64,000 nucleotides of DNA, from IMG/VR virus record IMGVR_UViG_3300036770_005983, positions 1 to 64,000 of that record. One strand, 5' to 3'. The translations under genes and the position numbers were made by a program. Position 1 is the first letter of the stretch. The number at the start of each line of letters is the position of its first letter. Shown here piece by piece: positions 1,963 to 31,303 of this stretch. Below the pieces are notes generated by a model that was not told the origin of the DNA, did not search any database, and worked only from the letters and a program-made list of their open reading frames with translations. This stretch comes from a virus.

Positions 1963-2130
1963 ATGAGATTTCTGGATAAATTAGCGCTAAATAGATTAAT
2001 ATCTATTATTTTAAGCTTTATATTATCTGTTATAAAATTAGTAGTACCAAAAACAGAATCAGATGATTCTATCGTTCCCAAACCACCAACAAAACGCAAA
2101 CGACTATTTCCAAGAGGTAGAAATGAATAA
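1963..2130 (+). CDS. Small one-helix membrane protein (55 aa)
   Basis: Too short for a usual ORF cut-off, but it fills the gap after the protease. An ATG lies 8 bases after the protease stop, and the stop overlaps the next gene's ATG by 8 bases. The protein has a basic N-terminus (MRFLDKLALNR), a hydrophobic helix (about residues 12-28) and a basic, Pro-rich tail ending KRKRLFPRGRNE. This shape fits a small inner-membrane protein with a cytoplasmic positive tail, such as a holin or anti-holin accessory, but I recognise no family. It belongs to a run of four small membrane proteins. Confidence 0.55.
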   Translation: MRFLDKLALNRLISIILSFILSVIKLVVPKTESDDSIVPKPPTKRKRLFPRGRNE

Positions 2131-2353
2131 ACTAATACTACCACTATTATTTATTGCTATAATATTTGGATCATCCAGATACAGTGGTAATTCGTCTGCT
2201 CCTGTTGTTTTATCCGGAGCTATAATAAAAAATATTGGCAATGAACCAGTTAAAAAATACAAAAGAAAAGAATGTCCGGTGTGCAAAGGAAGTGGTAAAT
2301 ATTTGAGTGGCGATGGAATCAAAATGGTTGATTGTGGTTATTGCCTACCCTAA
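2123..2353 (+). CDS. Exported or membrane-anchored protein with DnaJ-type zinc finger
   Basis: 76 residues from the ATG at 2123, chosen because a purine-rich AAGAGG lies just upstream; a longer in-frame ATG at 2063 would lie well inside the previous gene. Residues 1-17 (MNKLILPLLFIAIIFG) form a signal peptide or anchor. The C-terminus has CPVCKGSGKYLSG then DCGYC, a single CxxCxGxG...CxxC zinc finger as in DnaJ repeats. Function unknown. In similar phage proteins this layout gives a small membrane-tethered zinc protein. It could equally be a lipoprotein-free secreted peptide. Confidence 0.6.
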   Translation: MNKLILPLLFIAIIFGSSRYSGNSSAPVVLSGAIIKNIGNEPVKKYKRKECPVCKGSGKYLSGDGIKMVDCGYCLP

Positions 2354-2365
2354 GAGAGATATAAT

Positions 2366-2755
2366 ATGCAAATAGATCCTAATTTAGAACATATTGCTCA
2401 AAAAGTAATAGATAAAGCAAATATTAAAAATAATAACTATGGTTTTGATCCAATAACAATAATTATTGTGATTGGCGTTATACTTAGTTTAATAAGAGTT
2501 ATTCAAGAATGTAGAAGCAAAAGACGCAAAAATGATAAAATGAGCGAAGCTTTGGATCTTAGACATACCATAGTAAATTTAACTATTAAAGATAATTGGC
2601 TAAATAATTATAGATTAAATAAAATAATCAAACAACACTTGAGTAAACAACAGTATAAACAATATGGAGTTAGTTTAAAAAATGCCATCATGGAAGTTGG
2701 TAAGAATCTCAATGATAGTGAATCTTTAACGCTTCTGGAGGCAACAAATGTTTAA
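2366..2755 (+). CDS. Hypothetical single-span membrane protein (129 aa)
   Basis: AGAGAG lies before the ATG. The N-terminal 28 residues are polar, then a hydrophobic segment DPITIIIVIGVILSLIRVI (about residues 29-47) is followed by a strongly basic stretch CRSKRRKNDK and a soluble, probably helical C-terminal half. By the positive-inside rule the C-terminus should be cytoplasmic. No family recognised. The stop overlaps the next ATG by 8 bases, so translation is probably coupled to the following membrane protein. Confidence 0.6.
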   Translation: MQIDPNLEHIAQKVIDKANIKNNNYGFDPITIIIVIGVILSLIRVIQECRSKRRKNDKMSEALDLRHTIVNLTIKDNWLNNYRLNKIIKQHLSKQQYKQYGVSLKNAIMEVGKNLNDSESLTLLEATNV

Positions 2756-2996
2756 TCTTTTAATCTGGATAGTGTATGGTTTATTTGTGGGGTCATTGGC
2801 TAAAGCTATTGTACCAATAAATTTAAGACTTGGATTTTTTCAAACAATAGCTCTTGGTGTTGCTGGTTCTTACATGGGTGGAGCTATACTATATATCTTA
2901 GGCACTTATGATAGTCTAAGTCCTTCGGGTATATTTATGGGTGTTGCTGGTGGTATTATAAGCTTAATATTATATAACAAATTTTTAAATAAGTGA
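2748..2996 (+). CDS. GlsB/YeaQ/YmgE-like three-span membrane protein
   Basis: 82 residues with three hydrophobic segments and the Gly-rich pattern of the transglycosylase-associated GlsB/YeaQ/YmgE family: GLFVGSLAKAI near the N-terminus, then GVAGSYMGGAILY, then GVAGGIISLILY. Family members are small bacterial inner-membrane proteins of uncertain role, often stress induced. In a phage it may be a holin-like protein or a captured host gene. A GGAGG Shine-Dalgarno lies just upstream (TCTGGAGGCAACAAATG). Confidence 0.65.
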   Translation: MFNLLIWIVYGLFVGSLAKAIVPINLRLGFFQTIALGVAGSYMGGAILYILGTYDSLSPSGIFMGVAGGIISLILYNKFLNK

Positions 2997-3007
2997 AAGG
3001 ATAAAAT

Positions 3008-3802
3008 ATGGCCGATAAAAAAATATCTGAATTAACAGCAACACAAAGTGTAGCTAGCGGAGATTTGATGGTTGTTGTTACCGGAGTAGGCACCCCCGGA
3101 GCAACACTAGTCACACATAAATTTCCATTATCTGGATTAGTAAATAATATTGTTAATATAGATGAACTTATTACTAATGGCACCGGTATACATCTAGTAC
3201 CAACTATCAGCGCAACACTACCGAATAAAGTCAATATTAATGTTAGTGGCTATGCATACACATCCCATACTCATACAGCATCAAATATTACAGATTTTGC
3301 TAGTACTGTAAGTGGACAAATACAACAAATAATTAAATTTCAAAGTTCCGATTTACCAGCCACCGGATCTTTATGGGTTCAAAGTTCAGATCTAAGTATA
3401 CCTTTATCCGGTAACAGTAAATACTTATGTGAACTTGGCGCAATATTTGTTGGTAACGAAGTAGATATGAACATATCAGGCTCTATTGCTGTAACAGGTA
3501 CTATGGAAGTTAATTATCCTACACAAATATATGGAAATTGGAATCATTATCATTTGGATAATGAAGGAGTCTTACTTTTAAGAGGATCAACATCATCAAT
3601 TAGTGGCTATGGTTTAGCAGTAGAAACTATTCATTCATCCGCCACTGGCCTGCCTATTTCCTTGGTCAATAAATTTATTGTAGAAACAAATAGTTCAGAA
3701 GCTGATACAATACGGTTCGATTTTACTACCGATAGTAACGACCAAGCTACAAGCGGAGTACTAAAGAAAGGTAGTTGGCTTAAAGCGGAAAAAATAATCT
3801 AA
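3008..3802 (+). CDS. Putative tail-fibre or virion appendage protein A
   Basis: 264 residues. The N-terminus MADKKISELTA...SGDLMVVVTG is a motif I associate with phage fibre-type proteins and is shared with the next gene (MADSKISDLP...KDLMVVVTG), suggesting a common attachment module. The middle has Gly/Ser/Thr-rich beta sequence with YTSHTHTASNITDF, a short His-containing motif frequent in phage fibres. The C-terminal part is beta-rich and probably holds the variable or receptor region. The preceding gene ends 12 bases upstream, and AAAGGATAAAAT supplies a ribosome site. Structural role inferred from composition and neighbours. Confidence 0.6.
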   Translation: MADKKISELTATQSVASGDLMVVVTGVGTPGATLVTHKFPLSGLVNNIVNIDELITNGTGIHLVPTISATLPNKVNINVSGYAYTSHTHTASNITDFASTVSGQIQQIIKFQSSDLPATGSLWVQSSDLSIPLSGNSKYLCELGAIFVGNEVDMNISGSIAVTGTMEVNYPTQIYGNWNHYHLDNEGVLLLRGSTSSISGYGLAVETIHSSATGLPISLVNKFIVETNSSEADTIRFDFTTDSNDQATSGVLKKGSWLKAEKII

Positions 3803-3822
3803 TAATAAAAATAGGATAAAAA

Positions 3823-5004
3823 ATGGCAGATAGTAAAATTTCTGATCTACCACTATCTCCATACATCTTGGATAAAGATCTAATGGTTGTGGTTACTGGT
3901 CATTTAGAGGAAGGATCTTTTCCAGAAAATATCAAAGTACCATTAGGTTTAATCAGAAGATATATAGTTAGACTAAATCTATTAACTAGTCCACAGTCTG
4001 GAATTAGTACATATTATAATAGTGGCGCAAATATTTTAACTATTAATCATTCGCCGCTCACCGGTAATCTAATGAGATATGATTATGCTACAGATTTTCC
4101 TTATAATCAAACTATTAGCACCACAGGTTTAAATTGTGTAGCTGGAAATAATATAGAATTAAATTTTGCCTCCAACACTGCATCGTCGCTTGTTTACGGC
4201 AAAACAGGACCACCATTCCATAGCGGAATAATATCTACTACTGGTCTAAATATGTTAGACGGTAATGGTATAGCATACACGATAGAGTCCGCATGGCCAC
4301 ACAAATATACTATTCTGAATTCTGAAAAAACCAAAACCAAGACCACTGCTGAAATAATATCTAATCTAGATAATAATTTTGCTCCATCGACTAGCGGATA
4401 TAATTTATTATCAATTAACTATAGTGATTTTTATCAATCAAAGACTAATGAAAGTTTGAAACTGTTGTGTACCATTGGATTAAAGGTATCAAATATAACG
4501 TTCGATCCTATTCCATTCGTTCCAGCCTCTGGCCTTACGAATGAGAGAAAACAACTAGAACTATCTAATCAAAATTCTCAGGATTTTGCAGAAACTAGCT
4601 CGTCTTTTGTTGTTGATACATTCGAACTTAAAGTTGGTATTAGTGGAGGAGGTAATAATTTTATTAATACTATACATACTTATCCTATAACTATAAAAAA
4701 TACCAATGGTCCTAATGATACTGATTGTTCAGAAATCTACAGAAACGGAATTCCTGGCTTTGCTTTGAATGGTATAGATCCAATTATTATTAGAGAACCT
4801 ATAACATTGACATTAAATTCTAATAGTCCAAATAATTCTAATACTATATGTATATATGCAAGTATTAGTAATGTACAATATACTAGAACATACGTAGGAC
4901 CAGATTTTATTAATGGTATAAAATACGTATCCGCTAATGCGTACTCCTCTACGTCCGCTACTATATATCCATTATTTATCAAAACAGAAAACATTATCTC
5001 TTAA
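3823..5004 (+). CDS. Putative tail-fibre or virion appendage protein B
   Basis: 393 residues. Its first 25 residues parallel the protein encoded just upstream (KISxL...DLMVVVTG), followed by a different body with repeated phrases such as ISTTGLN (SGIISTTGLNMLDG; TISTTGLNCVAG), typical of beta-structured fibres. The C-terminal half looks like a globular beta domain with few charged residues. The shared N-terminus with a new C-terminus is what is seen when fibre subunits share a docking site but bind different targets. AGGATAAAAAATG gives a ribosome site. Confidence 0.6.
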   Translation: MADSKISDLPLSPYILDKDLMVVVTGHLEEGSFPENIKVPLGLIRRYIVRLNLLTSPQSGISTYYNSGANILTINHSPLTGNLMRYDYATDFPYNQTISTTGLNCVAGNNIELNFASNTASSLVYGKTGPPFHSGIISTTGLNMLDGNGIAYTIESAWPHKYTILNSEKTKTKTTAEIISNLDNNFAPSTSGYNLLSINYSDFYQSKTNESLKLLCTIGLKVSNITFDPIPFVPASGLTNERKQLELSNQNSQDFAETSSSFVVDTFELKVGISGGGNNFINTIHTYPITIKNTNGPNDTDCSEIYRNGIPGFALNGIDPIIIREPITLTLNSNSPNNSNTICIYASISNVQYTRTYVGPDFINGIKYVSANAYSSTSATIYPLFIKTENIIS

Positions 5005-5008
5005 TCTT

Positions 5009-6802
5009 ATGCTAACTCCAAAAGAATTATACGAAAAATATTCCAACGATCCTTGCACAAGATATTTAGGATCTCCGTACAGTCAGTTAAGTTTTGATGA
5101 TGTATACGATCCTCTTGGACCATTTTATGATGTCGGAGCTGGGACCCCTATTAATTGGCTTAGAATAACCAAATTTTTTAAACATGTAAAATATCCTTGT
5201 TTCGAAAGTGCTCCACATATAGACGAAATACTAGATACTGGGCAGTATAAATTATGTTTATCTTTTAGATTTTTACAATCTATGGATATAGAAGCATACA
5301 AAGAGAGACAACCCAATGTTAGGGCGGGAACATCTCATTCTGTAAGAAATACATGTGATTTATCAAGAGCTTGTTATTTAATAGCAAATAATTTGCAAAA
5401 TCACTGGTATGCTAGAATGGCTACAGAATATTTAGAATATTTTGCTCATAATTCTTTACCAGATTGTTTAATGATGTGCGGTCCAGATCTAGTAGATCCT
5501 GTAGTAGCAGAATTTTATAGAGCCCCAGGATATAAGGTAAAAAGTAATGAGCCATATGATATATCTGGAGCATCATCCGATGATCAGGACGGATCCATTC
5601 TAGAGGAAGCTGCCGAAAATGATGTGGGTATGTTATGTTTTCCAACTACTCCAAAAGGAGTTGCGGGAGCAAGTCATACTTGTATTCCTCCTAATGCCGA
5701 AAATCCACAATGTGCCAGTTGTTCAGAATGTCCAAAAAAAGAAAATGGAGAACCAATAGATCCAAATCATCCATGTTGCAAAGAAGGGACTATATATTAT
5801 GCTAATGAATGTTGTAATACCACCGTAATGATAACATTATCAGAAAAATCCGGCTTATTTGATGTAATAGAAAAAGGTGTTTTAAAAGCCGAGGGAGTAA
5901 CCGGATCGGCAGCTAGATCCTTAAGCACAACACTCAAAAATAAAAGTAAAGCACTAAGTAATAGATTAATAGATTTTTCTTTATGGGTAAAATCTGATGA
6001 TGGAATTTTTGATGGTACCTTTGCTAATGGTAGAGTTGGAGATAGATTAAAACAAGTCGGACTCTTAGAAAGAGCTTGTTATGATGGATATGCCGATTTT
6101 ACAAGTCAATGTTCTGCATATAATTTACCAATAATGTTTGAAGATACATTTCTAAAAAATCGAGTTCTCGAATTACAAGAATTTCCTTATTTGTTCATTT
6201 ATAAAGCTAAAACTATTTCTCTGATTCTTAAAGCAAGTGTAGATAGTTATGCTAATGTAACAACAGACTCCGAATGGATGTTAAAAAGAGTAAAAGATCT
6301 ATTGTGGAATGGATATGGAGTATTATTATTGACTAATGTAGGATTCCCAGATACTAGAGATTCTACGGGCGTATCGTATCCGGATCGTATTTTTTATCAA
6401 ACCTATAGTATTATAGGTTACGACGACACAAAAACATTATATAATGAGTGTGTATATGTGTTACAATGTCCTTTTGGAGAGTGGAATAGTGGCGGTCATC
6501 CGGAATGGGGAGAATTACCCACAGGAGCTTTTTTAGTTACAGAAAGCCATCTTAGATGTATGATTTCTTATTTTCCTACTCATGACTTTGCTGGATGTAG
6601 TAATTGTGGAGCGGATTCTGTTGGAAGGTGCGATCCCTATGATTGTAGAAAATATCAATCTGCATTTGGATTTCTATTCGCTATCTCTTTGTCTGAGGGA
6701 TTTCCAAAACAAGATCTAGATCATGAAAAATATTATCCTGTAGAATCTATTAAAGATATTTTAAAAGAGCAAAAACTTTATTATAGGCCACCACCAACAT
6801 GA
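5009..6802 (+). CDS. Papain-fold protease paralogue lacking catalytic residues
   Basis: 597 residues from the ATG at 5009, four bases after the previous stop; an in-frame ATG at 4937 lies inside the upstream gene. Homology to the protease at 9-1955: LTPKELYEKYSND against YSPEQLYKLYKDG, SHSVRN-DLSRA against SHSTRN-DVTRA, and GEWNSGGHPEW-LPTGAFLV against SWNSGGHPEW-IPNGSFLI. The nucleophile Cys is replaced by Gly107, the His region reads YQTYSIIGYDD with no His, and NSWG reads CPFG. A Cys-rich insert (about residues 226-270: CASCSECPK, PCCKEG, ECCNTT) probably binds metal or forms disulfides. A structural or adaptor role is likelier than proteolysis. Confidence 0.72.
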   Translation: MLTPKELYEKYSNDPCTRYLGSPYSQLSFDDVYDPLGPFYDVGAGTPINWLRITKFFKHVKYPCFESAPHIDEILDTGQYKLCLSFRFLQSMDIEAYKERQPNVRAGTSHSVRNTCDLSRACYLIANNLQNHWYARMATEYLEYFAHNSLPDCLMMCGPDLVDPVVAEFYRAPGYKVKSNEPYDISGASSDDQDGSILEEAAENDVGMLCFPTTPKGVAGASHTCIPPNAENPQCASCSECPKKENGEPIDPNHPCCKEGTIYYANECCNTTVMITLSEKSGLFDVIEKGVLKAEGVTGSAARSLSTTLKNKSKALSNRLIDFSLWVKSDDGIFDGTFANGRVGDRLKQVGLLERACYDGYADFTSQCSAYNLPIMFEDTFLKNRVLELQEFPYLFIYKAKTISLILKASVDSYANVTTDSEWMLKRVKDLLWNGYGVLLLTNVGFPDTRDSTGVSYPDRIFYQTYSIIGYDDTKTLYNECVYVLQCPFGEWNSGGHPEWGELPTGAFLVTESHLRCMISYFPTHDFAGCSNCGADSVGRCDPYDCRKYQSAFGFLFAISLSEGFPKQDLDHEKYYPVESIKDILKEQKLYYRPPPT

Positions 6803-25242: not shown

Positions 25243-25832
25243 TCATAGGACTATCTGGACGTAAACAATCCGGCAAAACTATTTGTTCAGATTTTTTAAA
25301 AGGATTATTATTGGCCAATGGATACTCAGATGTTGCAATATATAATTTTGCAGACCCATTGAAAGAAGACATCTGTATGAATATGTTTGGATTATCCTAT
25401 GTTCAATGTTATGGTGAAGATCATAATAAAAATGAACTAGTTGATGCCTATTGGGATAATAAACAATTGACCGCTAGAGATCTGATGCAATTAATAGGCA
25501 CTGATTTATTTAGAAAATTAAATAATAATGTTTGGGTTAATGCTTTGATGAATAAAATAAAGAAAAATAAACATGAGGTTGTCATAGTATCTGATTGTAG
25601 ATTTCCAAATGAAATAGAAGCTATTAAAAATCAAAACGGTATTATTATACGTCTGAATAGAAATCCACACAACTCTGATCACAGTAGTGAAACAATATTA
25701 GATGCAATAAATTATAATTGGAATAAATTTGATTTTATCATTAATAATGCTCATATGACCGTAAGAGAACAATTTGAGACCATAAAAAAAATTATTATTC
25801 AGAAAAATATTCTACCAAAAGAAACTATATGA
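25239..25832 (+). CDS. Deoxynucleoside monophosphate kinase
   Basis: 197 residues, ATGA overlap with the primase. It has P-loop GLSGRKQSGKT at residues 4-14, FADPLKEDI, LMQLIGTDLFRK and VVIVSDCRFPNEIEAI, the pattern of T4 gp1-type dNMP kinases. It phosphorylates dNMPs to dNDPs. It links the deaminase and reductase products to the polymerase. Size is usual for the family. Confidence 0.85.
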   Translation: MIIGLSGRKQSGKTICSDFLKGLLLANGYSDVAIYNFADPLKEDICMNMFGLSYVQCYGEDHNKNELVDAYWDNKQLTARDLMQLIGTDLFRKLNNNVWVNALMNKIKKNKHEVVIVSDCRFPNEIEAIKNQNGIIIRLNRNPHNSDHSSETILDAINYNWNKFDFIINNAHMTVREQFETIKKIIIQKNILPKETI

Positions 25833-26875
25833 TTATCACATATCTAAGAAGTTCCAGTTACGGAACACACTCCATGTGTCCTATGCAATATATGTTCGAA
25901 TATGTTCTTGGGATAAAATCTAAATCCAACAAAAAAGCAGATAAAGGTACTATATGTCACAAAGTTTTCGAAATTCTTGCACATATAAAATTGTGTGATC
26001 AAAATAATCAACAGTACTATAATGATACAGAAATATTGGGTATAATAGATATTAATAATTATGATATTAATCTAATTATAGAAAAAGTATACGATTATTA
26101 CATATCAAAATTTAATCATCATGAGTGGTCGGCAGCCGACTATAATGAATGCAAAAAATGGATTTTTAAAGCCCTTAATTATTCTGATGGCATATTTGAT
26201 CCTAGGAATAAAAATATTGTACAACCAGAACAGCATTTTGATATAGAAATAAAAAAAGAATGGGCTAAATATAATTATCAAACTAAAACGGGACAAATTA
26301 ATGGGTACTTAGCTATTAAAGGAACTATGGATCTAATAGCGCGCGTCAATGACGATACACTAGAAATTATAGACTATAAAACCGGCAAGAGATTAGATTG
26401 GGCAACCGGTCAGGAAAAAACCTTGGCAAAACTACATGAAGATCCACAACTAATGCTCTACTACTATGCTGTACATAAATTATACCCAGATGCTAAATAT
26501 GTTATAGTGTCTATATATTTTATTAATGATGGTGGTATGTTTTCGATCTGTTTTGACAAGTCTCATATATCTAAAATTGAAAATATGTTAAAGAATAAAT
26601 TTGAAACCATAAAAAATACTACTAATCCAGAACTAAACAAAAGCTGGAAATGTACAAAATTATGTCATTTTGGCAAAAATACATTTAATAATACCAATCA
26701 TCTTCCCATAATAGAATATAGAGAAAATCAGATTACACCACTTGGTGAACATATGACAATGTGCGAACAAGTTCATCACGACATATCGGTTAAGGGCATA
26801 GATGTGGTGGTTGACGAATACCAAGCTCCGGGGTATAATGTAGGACAGTACAAAGCTCCGGGTAGTGCCGAATAG
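25829..26875 (+). CDS. RecB/Cas4-like PD-(D/E)XK nuclease
   Basis: 348 residues. It begins SSSYGTHSMCPMQYMFEY (RecB-family N-terminal motif), then GTICHKVFE, then GTMDLIARV...LEIIDYKTGK, with Asp and E-x-D-Y-K as the catalytic set, and DPQLMLYYYAVHKLYP (QxxxY motif). A Cys in the first motif and later Cys residues (KCTKLC, TMCEQ) could bind an iron-sulfur cluster as in Cas4/AddB. The tail repeats YQAPGYNVGQYKAPG. It would process DNA ends for recombination or replication. Confidence 0.85.
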   Translation: MIITYLRSSSYGTHSMCPMQYMFEYVLGIKSKSNKKADKGTICHKVFEILAHIKLCDQNNQQYYNDTEILGIIDINNYDINLIIEKVYDYYISKFNHHEWSAADYNECKKWIFKALNYSDGIFDPRNKNIVQPEQHFDIEIKKEWAKYNYQTKTGQINGYLAIKGTMDLIARVNDDTLEIIDYKTGKRLDWATGQEKTLAKLHEDPQLMLYYYAVHKLYPDAKYVIVSIYFINDGGMFSICFDKSHISKIENMLKNKFETIKNTTNPELNKSWKCTKLCHFGKNTFNNTNHLPIIEYRENQITPLGEHMTMCEQVHHDISVKGIDVVVDEYQAPGYNVGQYKAPGSAE

Positions 26876-26927
26876 TTTTGTTATAAATAGTTGACAGATC
26901 TTTAGAAAAGGAAAGGATAAAAATATA

Positions 26928-26972
26928 ATGGATATGAGAAGAACGTATGTTCCTCTTCATGTCCATTCCTAG
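26928..26972 (+). CDS. Frame-broken start of DNA polymerase III alpha (PHP HxH motif)
   Basis: A GGAAAGGA ribosome site precedes ATG 26928, which opens MDMRRTYVPLHVHS and then meets TAG TGA. YVPLHVHS is the first strand of a PHP domain, normally fused to H/EYSLLDG of DnaE, and that continuation is found in the -1 frame immediately downstream. So the 14 residues are the natural N-terminus of the next gene, cut off by eight bases that look extra (26970-26977). It may be a remnant, the zero frame of a recoding site, or a leader for coupled re-initiation. Confidence 0.6.
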   Translation: MDMRRTYVPLHVHS

Positions 26973-26994
26973 TGACTCATTACTCACTATTGGA
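26967..26994 (+). other. Hairpin at the frame break in the polymerase gene
   Basis: TAGTGA (26970-26975), loop CTCATTAC, TCACTA (26984-26989) form a perfect six-pair stem, extended by TCC pairing with GGA after a two-base TT bulge. The two in-frame stops lie in the left arm. GTG 26972 overlaps TAG as TAGTG. The position exactly at the broken motif is notable. Confidence 0.5.
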
Positions 26995-28819
26995 TGGACT
27001 TTCTCAACCTCATCAAATCGCCGATAGATGTTTGGAAATTAATGCAAAATCATGCGCACTAACAGATCATGGAAATATTTCTGGAGCTATTAAGTTTTAT
27101 ACAGAAATGAAGAAGAATAGCATCAAGCCTATTATTGGCTGTGAGCTATATATCGCTTCCGACGATGCTTCTGTTCAAACTAAGGAAAATAAAAAACTAA
27201 GCCATTTACTGGTTTTGGCCAAAAATTACAGAGGATGGAAGAATTTAATAGAAATTGTTTCTTTATCTAACAGACCCAATTTTTACTATCATAAACCAAG
27301 ATTAGATTTGTCCTTATTAAAAGAATACGTTAGAGGTGATCTAGTCTGTATCTGTGGACATTTAGGATCTTTTATTGCCGACAAGCTTGTTATTGCCGAC
27401 AAGATTGTATCAGATTGGAAAAATATTGGAATCGAACATATTAACTCTTTTAAGGACATCTTTGGAAAAGATAATTTTTTTCTAGAATCCCAACTAATGG
27501 ATCAAGAAAACTTACCCATACAAAAGACCCTAACAGACTGCATTAGAGAACTAGGCGTAATAACCGATACCAAGGTTGTCTGCACACCAGATGCCCATTA
27601 CTGTAGAAAAACAGACGCGGTAGATCAAAGAATTTTACTATGTAATAATCTAAAAACAACTTTCGGAGAAATTAGTAAAAAAATTCATAATCACGAAGAT
27701 ATTCCTCTCTCTGCTTTTTTTACATCAGACAATTTTCATATATTATCTCAAGAAGAAATGCATAGTATACATACTGAGGAGGAAATAGAAAATACAAACT
27801 TAATAGATAGTATGTGTGAAGAATATAATATATTAGATAAGCCTAATTTACCTCCTTTTAGTTGTCCGGCAGGGTATACAGATGCTGAATATCTTAGGGA
27901 ATTATGTAGAAAGGGCTGGAAACAAAAAATAGCAAAAACAGTACCAGAAAATGATCAGGGTATTTATGTTGATCGTATCAAATACGAACTAGATGTTTTG
28001 CAAGGTGCCAATCTTTCTAGTTATTTTCTACTTGTACAAGATATTGTGAATTATGTAAAAACTAATAATTGGTTACCAGGACCGGGTAGAGGCAGTGCTG
28101 CTGGTTGTCTGGTGTCTTATTTGATCGGCATTACAAATATTGATCCTATTAAATATAATCTAATGTTTGATAGATTTTATAATTCTGGAAGAAATACTAA
28201 AGATAGAATATCAATGCCAGATATAGATGTGGATGTACCAATTAATAAAAGAGAAAATATCATACAATATATTAAAAATAAGTATGGAGAAGATAAGGTT
28301 TCTCAAATGATAACTTTTAACACTATCAAAGGTAGGGGTGCTCTTAAAGATGTTCTTAGAGTATATGGCAATATATCTTTTGACGAAATGAATAAAATTA
28401 CTAAGAATATCCCGGATGAAGCAAAAATTGCCGATGAGCTTCAAGAAATGAAAGAAGAAACAGGAGAAGCATCTATTATAAGATGGGCTTTAGAAAATAA
28501 TGCAGACGGCTTAAAAGATTATTGTTATATAGATTCTAATAATACTTTAAATGGTCCACTTGCAAAAAGATTCGAGCAGGCTATTAGACTAGAAGGAACA
28601 AAATCGAATCAATCTAAACATGCGGCCGGAATAGCCATAAGCGCTAGTCCACTCAAAGATATTTGTCCTATGATTTATGATTCTAAAAATGAACAAATGA
28701 TAGCTGGAATGGAGATGCAAGATCTAGAATCATTAGGAATAATAAAATTTGATATTCTCGGTGTAGCAATGCTAGATAAAATTATGACGATTCAAGATCT
28801 ATTAAAAGAAGGAGAATAA
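26972..28819 (+). CDS. DNA polymerase III alpha, N-terminal half (PHP and palm)
   Basis: 615 residues from GTG 26972. It starts THYSLLDGLSQPHQIA (second part of PHP motif 1), then ALTDHGNISGAI, GCELY and CTPDAHYC (further PHP motifs). The polymerase palm has PGPGRGSAAGCLVSYLIG, PDIDVD with D419 and D421, and KFDILG with D594, which match E. coli DnaE D401, D403 and D555. It stops 21 residues after D594, so all three catalytic Asp are here but the fingers are encoded separately at 29687-31303. No intein sequence is seen at the break. Confidence 0.9.
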   Translation: MTHYSLLDGLSQPHQIADRCLEINAKSCALTDHGNISGAIKFYTEMKKNSIKPIIGCELYIASDDASVQTKENKKLSHLLVLAKNYRGWKNLIEIVSLSNRPNFYYHKPRLDLSLLKEYVRGDLVCICGHLGSFIADKLVIADKIVSDWKNIGIEHINSFKDIFGKDNFFLESQLMDQENLPIQKTLTDCIRELGVITDTKVVCTPDAHYCRKTDAVDQRILLCNNLKTTFGEISKKIHNHEDIPLSAFFTSDNFHILSQEEMHSIHTEEEIENTNLIDSMCEEYNILDKPNLPPFSCPAGYTDAEYLRELCRKGWKQKIAKTVPENDQGIYVDRIKYELDVLQGANLSSYFLLVQDIVNYVKTNNWLPGPGRGSAAGCLVSYLIGITNIDPIKYNLMFDRFYNSGRNTKDRISMPDIDVDVPINKRENIIQYIKNKYGEDKVSQMITFNTIKGRGALKDVLRVYGNISFDEMNKITKNIPDEAKIADELQEMKEETGEASIIRWALENNADGLKDYCYIDSNNTLNGPLAKRFEQAIRLEGTKSNQSKHAAGIAISASPLKDICPMIYDSKNEQMIAGMEMQDLESLGIIKFDILGVAMLDKIMTIQDLLKEGE

Positions 28820-28821
28820 TT

Positions 28822-29007
28822 ATGTCACTACAAAAATTTGCAGATATTTCGGTTGGCACCAAGTTTAAAACAGATAATAAAGAATTTATTAAAATTCAAG
28901 ACGAAAGAATATCTTGCTGTAAACTCTTCAATGCTGTTCTTGCCACAGATTCAACAAAAAAACATTTCATAATTCCTATTACAGAGGTAGAAGTTGTAAC
29001 AGAATGA
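28822..29007 (+). CDS. Small conserved-looking protein between polymerase halves (61 aa)
   Basis: The start follows the polymerase stop by two bases; GGAGAA gives a ribosome site. MSLQKFADISVGTKFKTDNKEFIKIQ and later CKLFNAVL and ITEVEVVTE form a small all-beta pattern, F-x-D-x-x-V-G-x-x-F-x-(x)-K, which I have seen in small phage proteins of unknown role. It overlaps the exonuclease ATG by four bases. No catalytic motif. Confidence 0.6.
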   Translation: MSLQKFADISVGTKFKTDNKEFIKIQDERISCCKLFNAVLATDSTKKHFIIPITEVEVVTE

Positions 29008-29690
29008 TCAATTATAACAAAATTTGTGTTTTTGATTTTGAAACGGACGGCGTAGATGCAGAGTCTTGCAGTCCTGTCCAATTGGCTGCTGTGATAATCG
29101 ATCCCATTAATCTAGAAATTATACCCAATTCAGAATTTAATATTTATTTTAAGCCAGAAACTCTTGAAAAAGATTCCGACTACGTATATACCACAGATGT
29201 TGTAGATTTTCATGCCAAGGTTTATGGTTGCTCAAAAGAAGATATTATAAGTAAATGGAAAGCAAATCCTGCTCAAGAACATTCTTGGAAAATGTTTACA
29301 GACTATCTCGATAAATACCATACAAGATCGTCTAAAAAAAGTCAGTTTACAGCACCAATAGCTGCTGGATATAATATATATAGATTTGATTTACCCATAA
29401 TCAATAGACTTAGTAGCAAATATAAAAACATAAATAAAGAAGGAAAAACAGATCTTTTTTATCCTAGAGATGTTATAGATGTAATTAATCTTATATTTTA
29501 TTGGTTTGAACAGAATAGTGATATTAAGAGTTATACTTTAGATTCACTAAGAGAATATTTCGGAATATCAAAGGAAGGTGCTCACGATGCTTCCAAAGAT
29601 GTCATAGACACAGCGAATATAATGATTAGATTTATGAAACTACACAGAAGACTCTCTAAGAACATTAAATTTAAGGATTCTTTTAGATGA
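29004..29690 (+). CDS. DnaQ-like 3'-5' exonuclease (proofreading)
   Basis: 228 residues. DEDDh motifs: VFDFETDGV (Asp, Glu), GYNIYRFDLPII (Asp) and GAHDASKDVID (His, Asp). That matches the epsilon subunit of DNA polymerase III. It sits between the two polymerase genes, joined by ATGA overlaps on both sides, which supports a role in one holoenzyme. It lacks a long C-terminal tail for binding the alpha PHP domain, although the end KLHRRLSKNIKFKDSFR could contact it. Confidence 0.88.
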   Translation: MINYNKICVFDFETDGVDAESCSPVQLAAVIIDPINLEIIPNSEFNIYFKPETLEKDSDYVYTTDVVDFHAKVYGCSKEDIISKWKANPAQEHSWKMFTDYLDKYHTRSSKKSQFTAPIAAGYNIYRFDLPIINRLSSKYKNINKEGKTDLFYPRDVIDVINLIFYWFEQNSDIKSYTLDSLREYFGISKEGAHDASKDVIDTANIMIRFMKLHRRLSKNIKFKDSFR

Positions 29691-31303
29691 AGAAATTTGC
29701 ATACTCATGTGGTTGTTCATTTGATTTATTGGATCAAAATAAAACAAATATTGCTTTTAATCCGATAAACAATCAAATAAATCTAGATTGTCCTAAAACA
29801 TGGAATCTTATTTCTGATGGTAACACAAAAGGTTGTTTTCAATTAGAGTCTCGTTTAGGGCGATCAATGGCGAAAAAGTTAAAACCACAGAACATAGAAC
29901 AGCTATCCGCATTAATCAGCATTCTAAGACCAGGATGCTTAGAAGCGGTAAGAGACGGTAAAACTGTTAGTAGTCATTATATAGATAAAAAGAATGGCAA
30001 AGAATCTGTAGATTATTATCATCCAGCACTAGAATCCATACTTAAAAAGACCTATGGTGAAATGATTTATCAGGAACAGGCTATGGAAATAGCTAAAGAA
30101 ATAGCCGGATTTGACCTACAAGAAGCAGATAATCTTAGAAAAGCTATTGGTAAGAAAAAACCAGAAGAAATGTCCAAACTAAAAAATAAATTTATAGATG
30201 GGGCCAAACACAAAAAAATAGTTTCGGTATCAGAAGCTGAGGAAATTTTTGGATGGATAGAAAAAAGCCAAAGATATTCTTTTAATAAAAGTCATGCAGT
30301 ATCGTATGCGATTAATGCCTATTTATCCGCATATTGTAAGGCTCATTTTCCTAAAGTTTTCTTTGCTTCGTATCTTAGATTCGCTAAAGATAAAATAGAT
30401 CCTAAAGCAGAAATCAAATCTTTAGTTCAAAATGCTACAGAAATGGATATATTGGTTAGTGTTCCAGACTTACGTCTTATGAATGAACTATTTATACTAA
30501 AAGATAAAAATATATATTTTGGTTTAACAGATATTAAAGGTTTTGGATCTTCTGTATATAAAAAATTATCTACTATAGTAGAAGATAATAAGATTGATCT
30601 ATACCAATCTAGTTGGTACGATATTCTATTTCGTATATTACTTAATATTAATTCTACAGCAGCTAAAGCTCTAATAAAATCGGGATCTCTTGACTTTACA
30701 AAAAAAACTAGAACAAGTATGTTATTTGAATTTAGTTTAGTTAGCGAGCTTACCAACAAAGAAATATTATATCTAATAAATCAAATATCTTCATGTAGTA
30801 CTATATATGAGTATATATATAAACTATGTCATGAACATAAATTAACACAAAAAAGAAAAACTACTATTAATAGTATGTTAGACACAATTAAAAAACCACC
30901 ATATTCTCTGGATGATAATCCTGAATGGATTGCTGATTCCGAAGATGAGGTTTTAGGATGTCCTATTACTTGTTCAAAAGTGGATATGTATGATGTTAGC
31001 ATGACTAATTGTAACTGCAAAGATTTTAAAACTATTTTACTAAAAGATAATCTTATTGTGTGCGGAGAAATTTCTAGCTTAAATATAACAAAAACAAAGT
31101 CTGGAAAATCTCCTGGTGCAGAGATGGCTTTTGTATGCTTAACGGACGGCTATGGATCTATAGATAGTGTTATCTTTTTCCCCGAAGCATATAGAACATA
31201 TAAACATATTCTATTTGACAATAACATAATTATTATTAAGGGTAAAAAAGGACAGGGTGATGATTCATTTATAGTAGAAAAGTGTTTTATACCGAAAACT
31301 TGA
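29687..31303 (+). CDS. DNA polymerase III alpha, C-terminal half (fingers to OB)
   Basis: 538 residues. After a unique start (MKKFAYSCGCSFDLLDQ) come CPKTWNLISDGNTKGCFQLES and LSALISILRPGCLEAVRDG, the fingers entry of DnaE, then YGEMIYQEQAMEIA, SFNKSHAVSYA and the HhH region (FGLTDIKGFGSSVYKKL). An OB fold (NLIVCGEISSLNITKTKSGK) closes it. It lacks the palm Asp, so it must pair with the product of 26972-28819. The stop overlaps the SSB promoter -35 box. Confidence 0.9.
   Translation: MKKFAYSCGCSFDLLDQNKTNIAFNPINNQINLDCPKTWNLISDGNTKGCFQLESRLGRSMAKKLKPQNIEQLSALISILRPGCLEAVRDGKTVSSHYIDKKNGKESVDYYHPALESILKKTYGEMIYQEQAMEIAKEIAGFDLQEADNLRKAIGKKKPEEMSKLKNKFIDGAKHKKIVSVSEAEEIFGWIEKSQRYSFNKSHAVSYAINAYLSAYCKAHFPKVFFASYLRFAKDKIDPKAEIKSLVQNATEMDILVSVPDLRLMNELFILKDKNIYFGLTDIKGFGSSVYKKLSTIVEDNKIDLYQSSWYDILFRILLNINSTAAKALIKSGSLDFTKKTRTSMLFEFSLVSELTNKEILYLINQISSCSTIYEYIYKLCHEHKLTQKRKTTINSMLDTIKKPPYSLDDNPEWIADSEDEVLGCPITCSKVDMYDVSMTNCNCKDFKTILLKDNLIVCGEISSLNITKTKSGKSPGAEMAFVCLTDGYGSIDSVIFFPEAYRTYKHILFDNNIIIIKGKKGQGDDSFIVEKCFIPKT

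Follow-up and report, generated by a model that had tools for sequence, protein, structure and literature searches.

How is a replicative DNA polymerase made when its gene is divided in two, and when the first of the two genes opens in a frame that ends at a stop codon after 14 residues? This question is raised by the alpha subunit of DNA polymerase III (DnaE) in the window, that is, the whole stretch of 64,000 nucleotides that was analysed (positions 1 to 64,000 of IMG/VR virus record IMGVR_UViG_3300036770_005983). The features concerned are listed below with the evidence for each.

25829..26875 (+): PD-(D/E)XK exonuclease gene, upstream context (Pfam PDDEXK_1, 3e-18)
26910..26917 (+): likely Shine-Dalgarno stretch GGAAAGGA for the proposed dnaE-N start (sequence and relatives)
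26928..26972 (+): mini-ORF, MDMRRTYVPLHVHS and then TAG (26970-26972), with the proposed dnaE-N start at ATG 26928 (48 distinct relatives)
26928..26966 (+): 5' stem-loop, ATGGATATG pairing with CATGTCCAT (coding for HVH), plus an upper stem (pairing and swap tests)
26961..26999 (+): take-off stem-loop, outer GTCCATTC/GGATGGAC and inner TAGTGA/TCACTA with the stop codon (folds and swap tests)
26967..26969 (+): proposed take-off codon TCC, Ser14 (TCY then TAA/TAG in 20/20 interrupted sequences)
26970..26974 (+): proposed skipped gap TAGTG, 5 nt (3, 5, 6, 7 or 8 nt in relatives)
26975..26977 (+): proposed landing codon ACT, decoding resuming at CAT 26978 (restores the uninterrupted length, HVHS-HYSLLDG)
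26978..28819 (+): body of the dnaE N half, PHP domain and palm (Pfam PHP 6e-36, DNA_pol3_alpha 1e-73; 2hpi 14-637)
28822..29007 (+): 61-aa protein between the halves (64-row alignment; predicted SH3-like barrel)
29004..29690 (+): DEDDh 3'-5' exonuclease, probable proofreading subunit (RNase_T 5e-10, phrog_192 1.5e-21, PDB exonuclease match)
29687..31303 (+): dnaE C half, with fingers, HhH and OB fold (DNA_pol3_finger 7e-49, HHH_6 8e-8; 2hpi 647-946)

The separation of palm and fingers

The original prediction placed the motifs PDIDVD and KFDILG in the first gene and GCFQLES in the last, and this was confirmed, with Pfam and an alignment to Taq alpha (2hpi) in agreement. The N half (open frame 26972-28819), which has PDIDVD and KFDILG, aligned to Taq residues 14-637, and the C half with GCFQLES aligned from residue 647 on, so that little or nothing of the polymerase core is lost at the break. 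As had been stated, 21 residues separate the third catalytic Asp from the break, and a 61-residue protein and a DEDDh exonuclease stand between the halves. There are 2 nt between the N-half stop and the 61-aa gene, and the other junctions are 4-nt overlaps. The DnaE domain set was complete (PHP, palm with three Asp, fingers, HhH and OB), with OB scoring below the Pfam cut-off.

We looked for the same split point in viral sequences. The order N half, exonuclease, C half was found in 110/110 distinct IMG/VR loci having all three genes, and an open frame joining N to C was absent (0/110 distinct related IMG/VR loci). Outside the clade, nearly all of the closest sequences (about 30-35% identity) carry both halves in one ORF. 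A split throughout the clade with fused genes outside it marks the break as an ancient feature of a single virus clade. An independent contig of 177,880 nt (L002) was identical, and the N half of another locus (L082) was 93% identical; with the 110 loci, these exclude the assembly artefact that had been named as a possible refutation.

Searches with Pfam and PHROGs showed no intein families or motifs at the break, where the halves end and start with polymerase sequence. The cyanobacterial DnaE intein site, which we take to be ..Y/CFNKSHS, corresponds to RYSFNKSHA inside the C half of the window, and the predicted distinction from that site stands. Among 12 large records no family A or B polymerase was found and there was one PolIII alpha per record, that of G019 being in two pieces due to an intein. 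DnaE is thus the sole replicative polymerase found in the records tested. A two-piece polymerase without covalent joining, as originally proposed, is supported by a split that is clade-wide, by halves that are intact and conserved and by the lack of an intein at the break in these searches. Judged from this conservation, DnaE would consist of a PHP-palm chain and a fingers-HhH-OB chain that come together unspliced, and the exonuclease would be co-translated between them for proofreading.

The 61-aa protein has a conserved position in the gene order and a diverged sequence (64-row alignment). Its AlphaFold model was a small SH3-like barrel (pLDDT 93.7), on which an intein origin was rejected. 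With Foldseek, EF-P/eIF5A domain I was matched weakly in the PDB, and small phage proteins were matched better (6e-4 in BFVD).

Other interruptions were seen in the course of these searches. A second N-half break at GPGRG/SAAG (L041 and L054, both 3100-4480; also L166, L176 and L192) has an apparent split intein (CFIPETRV... / ...GIGVHN) with a separate endonuclease-like ORF between its parts, in the manner of 'fractured genes'. In L074 (3330-4600; also L230 and L252) an ORF with the LAGLIDADG-like motif GDGNIDD interrupts the N half ahead of ISMPDID, near residue 412-420. In the window itself, 9-1955 encodes a protein with NSWG/SWNSGG motifs and an in-frame intein-like insert (LAGLIDADG_3, 5e-8). 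A Phycisphaerales MAG contig (L254, 4293-6584) has a C-half relative (47%) with an in-frame insertion of ~160 aa; the N half and exonuclease were not detected on this 10.8-kb contig. In Bacillus phage vB_BpsS-140 (MH884512.1) the polymerase parts are unannotated and lie in overlapping open frames (2022-3122 and 3077-5638), and on this sequence its dnaE may also be broken. Some clade members carry DUF1559/DUF1501 genes, presumably planctomycete-typical families, which hints at Planctomycetota hosts. DUF1559 genes were present in L053, L062, L156 (also DUF1501) and G011 (117140-117910), some of them between the exonuclease and the C half.

The frame break at the start of the first gene

The first gene had been given a start at 26972. 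This was wrong or incomplete, as the HxH strand is encoded upstream, in another frame and behind a stop. GTG 26972 is simply where the open frame has its first possible start, and it overlaps TAG 26970-26972 of the other frame. Translation would have to begin 44 nt upstream at ATG 26928, which opens MDMRRTYVPLHVHS-TAG, and the 26972 frame continues with THYSLLDGL. In uninterrupted relatives a single frame gives M..YIPLHVHSHYSLLDGL; in the interrupted gene, the first PHP strand with its HxH metal ligands is parted from the rest by TAG and a few bases.

The protein-search loci comprised 20 distinct sequences with the break and 78 without. A DNA scan gave 72 contigs with 48 distinct elements, every one at this dnaE site, and the break is present in about a third of the clade's phages, the window included. 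All 48 leaders were 13-14 aa long, began with ATG or GTG and ended in Ser TCY with a stop directly behind it; TCY and the stop are fixed by the search pattern in these 48, and 20/20 of the protein-search sequences show TCY-TAA/TAG unforced. Most interrupted relatives have AAGGAG as the counterpart of the Shine-Dalgarno stretch. The element is single-copy per genome and confined to dnaE, and a dispersed mobile RNA element was rejected on the same count, the model finding one copy per genome. No element was found in cultured phages by blastn.

In the 48 distinct elements, YxPLHVHS of the leader plus xYSLLDG of the downstream frame equals the uninterrupted N-terminus, and a hop from TCY to the landing codon yields the exact length of the uninterrupted protein. 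Measured from TCY to the NCY/TCA codon that precedes [HM][YFD]SL, the gap was 3, 5, 6, 7 or 8 nt, with values of 0, 1 and 2 modulo 3 in 10, 17 and 21 elements, respectively. Two otherwise similar elements, L074 (7-nt gap) and L194 (6-nt gap), differ by 1 base in the gap. A single programmed frameshift was rejected on both grounds, since a fixed shift cannot serve all three classes and a hop can. The landing codon was UCN in 29/48 elements, so a full match to the Ser anticodon is available in at most 29/48, and ACU or GCY in 19/48, including the ACT of the window, which needs two-of-three pairing. A His-to-His hop (CAT to CAT) was also rejected, as ATG stands at many landing sites.

The Y, P and L codons of the mini-ORF showed synonymous variation only (31 distinct leader ends, with five codons for Leu), with position 2 invariant, and they sit outside the conserved 9-bp and take-off stems. 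The H/M-Y/F-S residues are also kept in the elements. By these codon patterns, selection acts on the mini-ORF at the level of its protein; some of the conservation seen in the codons could come from constraint on the RNA and from recent recombination with alleles that lack the break. The PHP motifs TDHG and DxHY were intact in 40/40 interrupted genes, from which it follows that the HxH strand should still be made, and the bodies of the interrupted genes are constrained (codon-position differences 0.26/0.14/0.51).

Across the aligned elements, two hairpins covary strongly. In the 5' stem-loop ATGGACGTG pairs with CACGTCCAT over 9 bp, with 99% of cells paired, two pairs changed on both sides and far lower values for slid controls. 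Swapping its 5' arms between elements gave weaker pairing in 1000/1000 trials, and the upper stem alone behaved likewise. For the take-off stem-loop, native combinations of gap and arm beat 500/500 gap swaps and 500/500 same-length swaps; the register was picked by the fold, which favours pairing, and the swap tests correct for this in part only. In this pairing the Ser third position and its gap partner were A-T in 24, G-C in 3 and T-A in 3 cases, and the Leu third position and its partner T-A in 26 and A-T in 9. Fold energy at the site was -4.7 kcal/mol for uninterrupted and -17.6 kcal/mol for interrupted sequences. The two stem-loops share GTCCAT and are mutually exclusive.

The shortest element (L155, 3757-3828) reads TCT TAA TCT, its gap being one in-frame stop codon, and its take-off hairpin is almost absent. 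From its sequence it is a candidate natural stop-hop, and simple readthrough is possible there too.

Probable bypassing, its alternatives and a proposed mobile cassette

The sequence comparisons make it most likely that the first gene needs translational bypassing. A ribosome would initiate at ATG 26928, read MDMRRTYVPLHVHS and stall with TCC in the P site, occupied by peptidyl-tRNA-Ser, and TAG, held within the hairpin, in the A site. The peptidyl-tRNA would then release, pass over 5 nt (TAGTG) and re-pair at ACT, and decoding would restart at CAT to give HVHS-HYSLLDG. The 5' stem-loop would refold behind the ribosome, competing for GTCCAT, and would probably assist.

The 14-aa ORF and the hairpins might instead regulate dnaE as a leader peptide, with re-initiation at GTG 26972 or at the TTG of LLDG and loss of the first PHP strand. 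GTG 26972 does lie in the gap and in the right frame in the window, an in-frame ATG or GTG precedes the conserved Ser in 23/48 elements, and TTG is found at LLDG in 45/48. However, an in-frame start ahead of the conserved Ser is lacking in 25/48 elements, and re-initiation therefore fails as a general account; two have none at all up to LLDG. The leader also keeps the YxPLHVHS of the polymerase at the protein level, and the other PHP metal motifs are intact. We regard such control as unlikely overall, with re-initiation possible in single cases.

Removal of the 3-8 nt from the RNA, by skipping in transcription or by an unknown, tiny splicing process, would account for any gap length and for the hairpins, but it is highly improbable. 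No group I or II intron or other Rfam intron family was matched in the window region and the 10 loci scanned, and an invariant stop directly behind the take-off codon is characteristic of bypassing and not of splicing. To our knowledge, no splicing takes out 3-8 nt.

The break is scattered in patches over the polymerase tree. With 121 N halves in that tree, 16 changes are required to place it, and well-supported branches force at least 8 of them. The dnaE-N start overlaps the preceding stop by 4 nt in 58/81 uninterrupted relatives and in no interrupted one; most interrupted alleles come with a spacer and a ribosome-binding site of their own. An HNH gene or its remnant lies directly upstream in 9/48 interrupted and 0/81 uninterrupted alleles. 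Six of the nine are distinct alleles with a complete endonuclease gene of ~240 aa in the spacer, and three have a C-terminal remnant. PHROGs matched the endonuclease to phrog_3322 (2e-20) and HNH phrog_374 (8e-17), and a Pfam search of the spacer endonuclease named no family. The window spacer upstream of dnaE-N is 52 nt and has no endonuclease gene. The elements are 83% identical to each other, against 73% for their downstream DNA, which is consistent with RNA constraint or with spread.

The break is probably the scar of a mobile cassette made of an HNH homing endonuclease and a hop element, with the 5' end of dnaE as its target. The hop element would restore reading and destroy the endonuclease target, and the endonuclease gene would often be lost afterwards, as in the window. 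The association with selfish endonucleases could also mean that the alleles are damaged, with the phages using a shortened DnaE or the host polymerase. Against this, many lineages keep the remainder of the gene intact and under constraint, the break element is conserved with covariation, and a second polymerase was not found; damage is even less probable than removal from the RNA. Metagenomic contigs could in principle contain errors of sequencing or assembly at either the frame break or the palm/fingers split; 48 distinct break variants and 110 distinct split loci from many independent assemblies already refute this reading.

The hop, its codons, the two-chain assembly and the homing are what we infer from these data. 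We hold with good confidence the account as a whole, in which a sole DnaE is made as two chains and the first is bypassed at the scar of a mobile cassette.

Relation to known systems

The probable bypassing of the first gene is a more important result than the split. T4 gene 60 has been described as apparently unique (PMC3014915), and a 2016 review noted a long-standing presumption that counterparts exist elsewhere, perhaps with shorter distances (PMC5009743). Efficient programmed bypassing has so far rested on this one bacterial example. We found no report of bypassing in dnaE in the literature, most subscription-only papers being outside our reach. We are reasonably confident that the elements form an independent, widespread and structurally variable bypassing family of large uncultured phages, borne within their sole replicative polymerase gene by a homing-endonuclease cassette, with hops of 3-8 nt, leaders of 13-14 residues, no long nascent-peptide signal and a natural stop-hop among its members. 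With 48 variants, covarying hairpins and 3-8-nt gaps, the rules for take-off and landing and the need for a nascent-peptide signal become directly testable. If the account is true, a homing endonuclease with a hop element is a recurrent route into replication genes, and gene finders miscall such starts, GTG 26972 being an example. The two-chain DnaE raises the question why palm and fingers can be separate.

The split of PolIII alpha has precedents in phages, namely group 2.2 jumbo phages (PMC7824862) and Bacillus phage KLEB27-3. In the jumbo phages PolIII alpha is also in two proteins (PMC7824862), but it is minimal, its genes are far apart and it occurs beside a family B polymerase, whereas here it is full-length, with PHP, encoded by adjacent genes with the exonuclease between them, and is the sole polymerase. 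The dnaE of KLEB27-3 is likewise broken, by an HNH gene, but at a different site and without an exonuclease or small protein between the parts. Cyanobacterial split DnaE also has two genes, but with another break site and joining by an intein.

The bypass gene of T4, gene 60, belongs to a split topoisomerase gene and is immediately preceded by the HNH gene mobA (PMC3014915, PMC5009743), and its 5' and take-off stem-loops share sequence (PMC5009743). The elements described here resemble gene 60/mobA in the stop after the take-off codon, the take-off and competing 5' stem-loops, the HNH gene upstream and the split replication gene (PMC5009743, PMC3014915, PMC11194080). They differ in the gap (50 nt in T4, 3-8 nt here) and in the leader (46 aa in T4, 13-14 aa here), which has no room for the KKYK signal and cannot hold a nascent-peptide signal ~25-30 residues before take-off of the kind on which gene 60 depends. 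Gene 60 uses Gly codons in a topoisomerase and is known as one variant, whereas Ser codons, a polymerase and dozens of natural variants are found here. The bypass elements of Magnusiomyces mitochondria are alike in their short bypassed inserts and imperfect take-off/landing matches (PMC5009743), but they are mitochondrial, occupy 81 sites and are seemingly independent of mRNA context, whereas the phage elements are at a single site and conserve their RNA structure. Synthetic stop-hops, with matched codons around a stop, have the same layout as TCT TAA TCT of L155 (PMC5009743), whereas the elements here are natural and mostly have longer gaps and hairpins.
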